Positions 11,081 to 13,748 of a DNA stretch of 64,000 bases are shown here, piece after piece. Source of the stretch: Halichondria panicea (taxonomy: Eukaryota > Porifera > Demospongiae > Suberitida > Halichondriidae); assembly GCF_963675165.1 (NCBI RefSeq), contig NC_087392.1, forward strand, positions 2,929,001 through 2,993,000, given 5' to 3'. The notes under the pieces were generated by a model, which made no database searches, was not told the origin of the DNA, and saw nothing but the letters and a program-made list of their open reading frames with translations. The position numbers were made by a program, and so were the translations under genes. Position 1 is the first letter of the stretch. The number at the start of each line of letters is the position of its first letter.

Positions 11081-13748
11081 ATGGTGACAAAGTATTCTCC
11101 TATCATGACTGTGCGGAAGTATGAACGATTTCGTGGTAACAATCGGTTTTTTTGTTGTGGGTATCTGATATCTGCTCGCCAGATAGGGATCATGGTCTTT
11201 GTGGCCATCCTGTTGGTGATTGTGTTTGCCCTCTTCTTGGCATTTGAGTGAGTGCATATAATATACACGCACATACGTACTCAGATGTGCGTGCTTCCTA
11301 ATCCTAGTATGTATATAGATCTATGCATAGAATGAATTTTGCTGGCTACATGTAAACATGTACATGTCATAGTTAATTTTGATAAACAGCTGATATAATT
11401 TTTATAATAAAAAAACATTCATGCTTCAATACTATTGACTCACCCCATTGACCCTGTCCATGCATACACACAGCTCTCGATTCCTTATCGCTAACGTGTA
11501 TCCAATAGGAGTGGGGGCCATCTTCCCCATTATTGCTGCTTTTGGTCTTTTCTATTCCATGGCCTTCCTCCTCAAGACTGGCTGCACTGACCCCGGCATC
11601 ATCCCTCGAGCAAAGACCGATGAGCTAGATTACCAACTAAGGCAGGCCGATGATGGTAAGTGTGTACTACATGTGATGTTCATTGAGAAGGTGAGGGTCA
11701 GATATGTAATTGTCTGGCCTTTCAAACTTGTATGGCACCGATAACATCGTTATAATTATTCTCCCTCTTCACAACACAGTTATAAAACAAGGTACAGCAC
11801 GATACATGACGATTACAGTCAAAGGAGAACAGCAAAAGCTCAAGTGGTGTGCCACTTGCGAGATATGGCGACCCCCAAGAGCCTCCCATTGTGGGCTCTG
11901 TAACAACTGCTATGGTCAGTGTTTCCCTATACCACTTCCAGCACGGCATACTGTTATTATCTGAGCTACCTGTAGGATGGTAAAAGTTTTGCATTGCAAG
12001 CCTAAATTGTGTAATTAGTAATTATGTGTTAGAATTAAGCACAGTAACAAACTTTATGTCTTCCAAGGGCTAGGGTTTGGGAAGGCTTCACGATGATTAG
12101 CGCTTACCTGTTGTGTACAAGGATTCAGTAATACACACTGTGTATATAATTATGTGTACTTGTACTGGAGAGAACCTGTATGTGTTGACAGCATTCTTCT
12201 TTCCTCTTTCCTTACATATATGCTACCAGAACATTTTGATCATCACTGTCCATGGGTGAGTGCTGTATGTTCACTTTGTCTCTTTCTCTTTCATGTGTCC
12301 ACTACTTAGACCGCTTTGACCACCATTGCCCTGTGGTAAGCCATGTCTCTTTTTAGAAGGTTATGAATTAGAGGCTTCCTTTTTTTGTAAAGCAGTTACT
12401 TGTGTATTGAATGGTACTATAGCTATCTCATTCATTCAGGAAATGTTTTGTTTCATTTGATTAGGTTGGCAACTGTGTGGCAAAGAGGAACTACCGTTAC
12501 TTCTACTTATTCTTAGTGTCTGTGTTTTGTATGTGTATCTATGGCATGGGCTGCAATGTGGCTGTCATTGTTCTTGGTAAGTTGTTCAGGAGTATGGAGT
12601 CGTGTTATTGTCCAGTATTGTAGCTGGCCTTGTAAATAATGTGTAGACATAAGTTTAATATGAACTTTTGATCGGAAACCCCACCCCAACTCTTGAACTT
12701 TTTTTCTCCCTAAAACAGCCTCCAAGATGACGAACTTTGGTGATGCTCTCAAGACGTACCCTGCCTCTGTCATAGAGTTTGCTATTTGTGGCCTTGGTGC
12801 CGTTGCTGTATCTGGGCTTGCCTGTATGCACACATGGCTCATAGCAACCATGCAGACAACTAATGAAGATGTAAGTTAACTGTTCGTTAGATTGTATATG
12901 CTGTCACACACGTGCATGTACAAGACTCTTGCTAGTTGTGTAGGGCATTGATCATTCAAGATTTCGTACTGCAGATCAAGGGAACTTTTAACCCACGGCG
13001 ACAAGGTCGTGATGTCAGCAATCCTTATACTCAGCGAAACTGCTGCAAGAACTTCCTGTTGGTCATCTGTGGCCCTTTCCAACCCAGGTGAGCTCTGGGC
13101 TATGCATTTGGGAATGAATTCTTGTTCTATAGAGGGTGTTATCTTCAGTCTCAGCAACTGTACTGTGTGTATATATACACACGACTTGCCTTTCCTATTA
13201 CAAGCACAATGTTTTGTATACACATGCAGTCTTATTGATCGCCGTGGAGTGGTGGACCTGGATGAAGAAGATGCTGCTGAGAGGTCTGATTATGGCAGCA
13301 CTGCTGGTACCGTGGTACATAGTACAGCTGTTCCTGGGGTGAGTTTCAACTAACATACAGTACACGTATGTGAGAGCAGTTACAATTTTCTGCAGTGCAT
13401 GTAGACGGTAATAATTATTTTTTCGATCACCTTTAAACTTTAAAACATACATGACCGTACGATTTCGTAACTGTGTATAATAATTATAGCCGGTAGTCAT
13501 TACTAATCTTATTTTAAACGCATGTCATCTGATAGCAAAACCATGCACAGATACCCATAGAATCATCTTCTAAGCCAAATGACCAATCACAAGAGTTACT
13601 AAACCCTGTTCAGTCCTCTTCGCCAGCCTCGAAACCAAGTACTGACAACGAAAGTCCATCAGCAGTTATAGGTTCGACAGAGGTTGAAGTTCATGCCAGC
13701 GATGATGAGACCGAAACACACAAGCTCATAACAAACGACGTAAACTGA
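11081..13748 (+). CDS. DHHC palmitoyltransferase (ZDHHC9/14/18 type)
   Basis: Nine-exon model: 11081-11247, 11474-11655, 11780-11914, then either 12230-12255 or 12310-12335, then 12465-12576, 12719-12870, 12975-13087, 13230-13338 and 13551-13748, giving 397 residues. The enzyme S-acylates cysteines of membrane proteins, usually at the Golgi. It has four membrane segments (exons 1, 2, 5 and 6), and the cysteine-rich domain between TM2 and TM3 (KLKWCATCEIWRPPRASHCG, then CNNC). The active site is DHHC at residues 165-168, followed by VGNCVAKRNYRYFY. TTNED after TM4 is the TTxE motif. N-terminal RKYERFRGNNRFFCCG and C-terminal SLIDRRG are typical of the ZDHHC9/14/18 group. The start could be 11081 or 11105. 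A second acceptor at 13536 could lengthen the last exon by five codons. The short final exon is acidic and Ser-rich. Confidence 0.92.
12230..12335 (+). other. Two tandem 26-nt alternative exons carrying the DHHC active site
   Basis: Exon 4a (12230-12255) encodes EHFDHHCPW; exon 4b (12310-12335) encodes DRFDHHCPV. Each is 26 nt, with the same phases, its own AG acceptor and GT donor, and 54 nt between them. Using both would shift the frame, and using neither would delete the catalytic motif, so the two should be mutually exclusive. Only 4a keeps the tryptophan that normally follows DHHCP. Confidence 0.85.

Follow-up and report, generated by a model that had tools for sequence, protein, structure and literature searches.

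Can one gene supply two palmitoyltransferases that differ next to the catalytic cysteine? The question is raised by a ZDHHC9/14/18-type palmitoyltransferase gene of the sponge Halichondria panicea, located in the window (the whole 64,000-nucleotide stretch analysed here, on a 5,828,375-base contig of a 131 Mb genome). The original prediction placed two tandem 26-nt exons, here A and B, at 12230-12255 and 12310-12335 and read them as EHFDHHCPW and DRFDHHCPV; positions and readings are exact. The gene is organised as follows (positions in the window):

11081..13748, plus strand: ZDHHC9/14/18-type palmitoyltransferase gene, ATG to stop (spliced coding sequence with exon A = P0001; Pfam DHHC; best PDB match 8hf3)
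11081..11247, plus strand: coding exon 1
11474..11655, plus strand: coding exon 2
11780..11914, plus strand: coding exon 3, ending in phase 1 and carrying the first base of the E/D codon
12230..12255, plus strand: exon A, EHFDHHCPW, present in NCBI isoform X1
12256..12309, plus strand: 54-nt spacer with 5' and 3' splice sites and a branch-point-like A
12310..12335, plus strand: exon B, DRFDHHCPV, without Trp, in the same phase as exon A
12465..12576, plus strand: common exon downstream of A/B, beginning with VGNCVAKRNYRYFYLF
12719..12870, plus strand: coding exon
12975..13087, plus strand: coding exon
13230..13338, plus strand: coding exon
13551..13748, plus strand: last coding exon, with the same acceptor as NCBI X1

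The splice form with exon A is identical, letter for letter, to P0001, annotated as "palmitoyltransferase ZDHHC9-like isoform X1 [Halichondria panicea]", a name that implies at least one further annotated Halichondria isoform. Both forms contain the DHHC domain (PF01529) above the Pfam cut-off, with E-values of 2.4e-35 for A and 7.5e-35 for B. Human ZDHHC9 (8hf3) is the top one of 8 PDB matches (E 2.1e-84, or 1.7e-140 with a profile), followed by ZDHHC5 (1.3e-45), ERF2 (1.8e-28) and DHHC20 (1.1e-21). The sponge protein resembles human ZDHHC9/14/18 along most of its length, and the A form has the DHHCPWVGNC motif; the human ZDHHC9 chain shows no counterpart of the second catalytic exon, the one without Trp. 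For the DHHC9 subfamily, a C-terminal cysteine motif has been described in connection with the partner GCP16 (PMC10076531, in the available part of the text). The sponge C-terminal cysteines, NPY..RNCC.NF..VICGP, align with human NCCEVLCGP. The last exon has two candidate acceptors that differ by 15 nt and preserve the frame (13536-13551, plus strand), the first of which would insert QNHAQ; NCBI X1 takes the one at 13551. A search of Rfam yields no match within the window.

Exons A and B are 26 nt each, lie 54 nt apart, are entered in phase 1 and left in phase 0, and are bounded by GT-AG introns. Their splice sites are good, as predicted, with acceptors ctaccag (A) and tacttag (B) and donors gtgagt (A) and gtaagc (B), and VGNC comes after either EHFDHHCPW or DRFDHHCPV. 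Inclusion of only A or only B gives a protein of 397 aa. Joining A to B breaks the frame, again as predicted, with a stop after 195 codons, 60 nt upstream of the next junction; omission of both exons leads to a stop after 206 codons, 127 nt upstream of the next junction, and the unspliced block of A, spacer and B to a stop after 187 codons. Since both A+B and neither stop early, a full-length product requires, by frame alone, exactly one of the two exons. Strongly alternative skipped exons of Amphimedon are enriched for lengths divisible by three (PMC6142364, as excerpted), so that a 26-nt exon suits an either-or choice better than plain skipping. The pair thus shows two of the features by which mutually exclusive exons are recognised: the neighbouring homologous exons match in length and phase and have intact splice sites, and the product is broken by double inclusion or skipping. 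At another DHHC locus, L035, an intron follows a complete GAG codon, only 2 nt away from the site of the exon 3/A junction, and there is no intron after the Trp; given this offset, the upstream intron of A/B is not clearly common to L035.

Exclusive use had also been argued from the spacer, considered near or below the minimum length of an intron. Intron sizes were derived from exon-by-exon matches to the chaperonin family PF00118 (39 usable gaps, 67 of 92 rows, introns inside a match being uncounted). The smallest introns inferred for the Halichondria genome are 55, 55 and 56 nt, with none shorter and a median of 301 nt over the 39 gaps. Each of these three has a frame-consistent GT-AG pair, and the peptides across the joins are presumably plausible chaperonin. 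At 54 nt, the spacer sits at the lower limit of intron length in this genome and not clearly below it, so the claim holds as far as "near" is concerned but does not extend to a spacer that is clearly too short or unspliceable. Two other estimates, from donor-acceptor spacing and from coding flanks, are too thin for use; the latter gives a faint excess at 55-59 nt at the loosest threshold (5 vs 0 in the control) and 0 vs 0 at the two strictest. The branch-point-like A of the spacer is 18 or 38 nt from the 5' splice site, less than the threshold of about 50 nt from branch point to 5' splice site given for OGDH (PMC7969005, in the part available), and crowding may contribute to exon choice. Given the inferred introns of 55, 55 and 56 nt, the case for exclusivity depends less on crowding than on frame and decay, and steric exclusion as the main mechanism, being unproven, was set aside. 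Selective pairing between introns finds no support either, the duplex energies being no better than those of mononucleotide shuffles (43, 95 and 29 of 100 as good). Thus, mutually exclusive use is favoured by the frame, by the synonymous-only divergence of the two exons and by other sponges (see below), whereas the argument from the 54-nt spacer is weak. A related arrangement is known from exons 4a/4b of OGDH, likewise duplicated neighbouring exons of an enzyme gene of which one is chosen, with a short intervening intron; there, however, a calcium-sensing segment is swapped and distant branch points enforce the choice, whereas the sponge gene swaps a catalytic motif and its branch point is only predicted (PMC7969005, same excerpt).

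The next question is whether exon B is genuine catalytic code. The FDHHCP codons of A and B differ at 5 sites, all of them third positions, with no amino-acid change. When sets of 5 random substitutions are simulated with a transition weight of 2, 22 out of about 400,000 turn out entirely synonymous, and the probability that 5 differences all hit third positions is 7e-4, figures that are descriptive only because the motif itself drew attention to the pair. The synonymous-only divergence indicates that the catalytic coding function of exon B has been preserved. When A and B are joined, exon B is read as TALTTIAL, and DHHC appears only in the B-only frame, which alone explains why the motif was kept. 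The pattern GAYCAYCAYTGYCC has two exact matches in the window, on one strand and 80 nt apart; with up to one mismatch, 0.32 matches are expected per shuffled window, and at least two occur in 3 of 100 shuffles. The whole genome contains 43 exact GAYCAYCAYTGYCC sites vs 7 for the reversed control pattern, and A/B is the sole pair within 1 kb among the 43. Of these sites, 21 belong to copies of a repeat found on contig C3 (L010-L030, G000:C3:69409-1918641), which carry GATCATCACTGTCC or a near copy of it, translate as ...HTPDHHCPHRC and are not DHHC genes; L033 and L036 are apparently further copies of this repeat. The best similarities between the introns flanking A and B are pyrimidine-rich and borderline or less (equalled in 5.0%, 4.2% and 10.2% of 500 shuffles), which suggests that the duplication is old.

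Exon B lacks the Trp of exon A, and the expectation that a near-invariant residue is lost is borne out: among the 274 proteins in the matches listed, a set selected for similarity, the position two residues past the catalytic Cys holds Trp in 266 of 274 motif instances. In the remaining eight it is Ala (2), Val (2), Met (2), Tyr (1) and Phe (1). This Trp has been described as conserved in every DHHC enzyme (PMC9105814, in excerpt). In simulations of human DHHC20, the corresponding Trp158, which follows the catalytic Cys by two residues, acts as a gate at the entrance to the acyl tunnel (PMC9105814) and binds the acyl-CoA carbonyl (PMC9739150), and the residue is described as lining and gating the tunnel (PMC11854935; all three sources as far as excerpted). 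The Trp/Val position of the sponge protein aligns with the Trp158 site, and the A/B switch may retune acyl handling. DHHC proteins without Trp include those with DHHCPM (P0049, P0096), DHHCPV (P0150), DHHCPY (P0221) and DHHCPF (P0270), and other Halichondria DHHC loci without Trp have DHHCYF, DHHCPY and DHHCPF. The presence of Trp-less loci in the same genome indicates that the family tolerates loss of this residue, and since the Trp is also gone from some single-form DHHC proteins, such a loss does not have to reflect regulated switching. In naturally Trp-less DHHC proteins the residue is fixed as far as sequences show, whereas the Halichondria gene holds both versions. P0049 and P0096, animal sequences from Logan, have DHHCPM in a ZDHHC9/14/18-type protein and are identical to each other at 293 of 345 positions. 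One Halichondria locus (L007, G000:C16:4310984-4316906) consists of three clustered DHHC matches in long open frames of 329-353 aa, at least two of which are DHHCPY and DHHCPF.

Comparison with orthologues in other sponges, proposed along with the original prediction, supports it in part. In Ephydatia muelleri, the hypothetical protein P0008 reads EQFDHHCPW-TFDHHCPV-VGNC, i.e., NNCLEQFDHHCPW-TFDHHCPV-VGNC, with the two motifs in tandem and Val for Trp in the second. P0008 is a gene model seen at the protein level only, with another odd insertion, and its simplest reading would be a predictor's merger of two alternatives: a 26-nt exon coding for ETFDHHCPV, entered at an internal AG, would give its 8-residue insert. 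A further protein, P0005 (JGI and Logan sources), has ETFDHHCPA in the context NNCYETFDHHCPAVGNC and is encoded by an uninterrupted 409-aa ORF on a 1,659-nt contig, so that it probably represents spliced RNA. At 269 of 305 positions it has the same residue as the Geodia barretti protein P0007, in which the motif is ENFDHHCPW in the context NNCYENFDHHCPWVGNC. P0154 (JGI, 246 aa) has TIDHHCPA in the context TIDHHCPAVGNC; the species of both P0005 and P0154 are assigned by similarity. P0154 starts with MDTIDHHCPA, its ORF beginning directly ahead of the exon-B-like motif. A Thr before Phe/Ile, together with a small residue in the Trp position, is common to P0005, P0154 and the second Ephydatia copy, suggesting one old exon B, although P0005 and P0154 could instead come from genes in which the absence of Trp is fixed, and not from alternative splicing. 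On the other side, only the Trp form is found for the sponge-like P0002, P0003, P0004, P0006 and P0009 and for Amphimedon (P0010), Dysidea (P0011), Sycon (P0137) and Oopsacas (P0148). A database clustered at 90% identity would hide a second isoform, so that these Trp-only sponges are weak evidence of absence. With short fragments of the Trp-less form as queries, no Trp-less sponge-like sequence was recognised among the best 120 of 403 protein matches, and the prokaryote and viral contig collections contained no sponge DNA.

These observations are best compatible, with a probability of roughly 0.6, with an old tandem duplication after which one of A and B is spliced in, B giving a still-active enzyme with changed acyl-CoA handling. 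The 26-nt catalytic-motif exon of a ZDHHC9/14/18-type gene would have been duplicated in tandem long ago, and exactly one copy would be spliced in, whereas both or neither would cause a frame shift and, through it, mRNA decay. Exon A would yield the standard DHHCPW enzyme; in the B product, the Phe-Asp-His-His-Cys-Pro core would be kept and Val (Ala in the Geodia-like sponge) would replace the tunnel-gating Trp. The B form would most likely still be active, with altered acyl-CoA loading, rate or chain preference. Exon B is very probably used in Halichondria and its product is probably competent in catalysis; that acyl handling is what changes between the two forms is about an even bet. A low-activity B form, also envisaged in the original prediction, is possible but less likely, since the whole FDHHCP core is kept. 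The corresponding alternative, in which the exons are mutually exclusive and B encodes a low-activity or dominant-negative enzyme competing for a partner or substrates, draws on the loss of a residue that in DHHC20 forms part of both the wall and the gate of the acyl tunnel (PMC9105814, PMC11854935, both in excerpt) and that is Trp in all but eight of the motif instances among the matches listed. A dead form, however, would not need a core kept through 5 synonymous and no amino-acid changes, and the Trp is absent also from other DHHC proteins of the same genome and of other organisms, which leaves this alternative rather unlikely.

The remaining readings deny exon B a full-length product of its own or place both motifs in one protein. 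As a poison exon, spliced only together with A, it would lower expression via nonsense-mediated decay; the A+B stop indeed lies 60 nt ahead of the next junction, and splicing of a 54-nt intron may be possible in Halichondria, but selection kept DHHC in the B-only frame, the A+B frame giving TALTTIAL, and a Trp-less full-length sequence is known from another sponge, so that such a role appears improbable. An unused relic of exon duplication would agree with the use of exon A in NCBI X1 but hardly with the two intact splice sites of exon B, the synonymous-only divergence of the core and the retention of a second motif in Ephydatia, and is less probable still. Least probable of all is translation of both motifs into one protein with a doubled DHHC in Ephydatia, and perhaps others, for which P0008 can be cited, having EQFDHHCPWTFDHHCPVVGNC in frame: A+B is out of frame in Halichondria, the 8-residue insert is what would be expected from a predictor using an AG inside a 26-nt exon, and the P0008 model contains the other odd insertion.

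The exchanged exon carries the active-site motif of a lipid-transfer enzyme and a neighbouring residue that is among the most conserved. If an either-or choice between A and B with an active B form is confirmed, the gene is a natural experiment on the role of the Trp that follows DHHCP. One gene may then yield two differently tuned enzymes, and sponges, animals without a nervous system, would change protein lipidation by splicing. A broader version, in which a splice switch shared among demosponge orders swaps the nucleophile-bearing motif and removes the Trp gate so that one gene provides two lipid-donor specificities, is doubtful; it would be based on the exon pair and on the traces of this pair in other sponges. 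It is a speculation that, depending on cell type or stage, the Trp-less form attaches bulky or very long sponge fatty acids to proteins, for instance the 'demospongic' acids of the delta-5,9 type. Mutually exclusive exons in tandem are already known, and the swap of a palmitoyltransferase catalytic motif with its tunnel-gate residue was not found in the open-licence literature; in titles and abstract openings of that literature, no description of mutually exclusive exons in a DHHC gene was found.

Two neighbouring genes are recognisable in the window. On the plus strand, 9269-10131 contains the last exons of the mitochondrial ATP synthase OSCP subunit (PF00213, E 6.9e-15), in which the intron 9356-10014 has an apparent GC start (KLDVK/gcaagt...tacag/VDPSI). 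Head to head with the DHHC gene, a single-exon ORF of 122 aa on the minus strand (10413-10781) matches DUF1358 (PF07096, E 7.2e-9), which we take to be a TMEM242-like protein.
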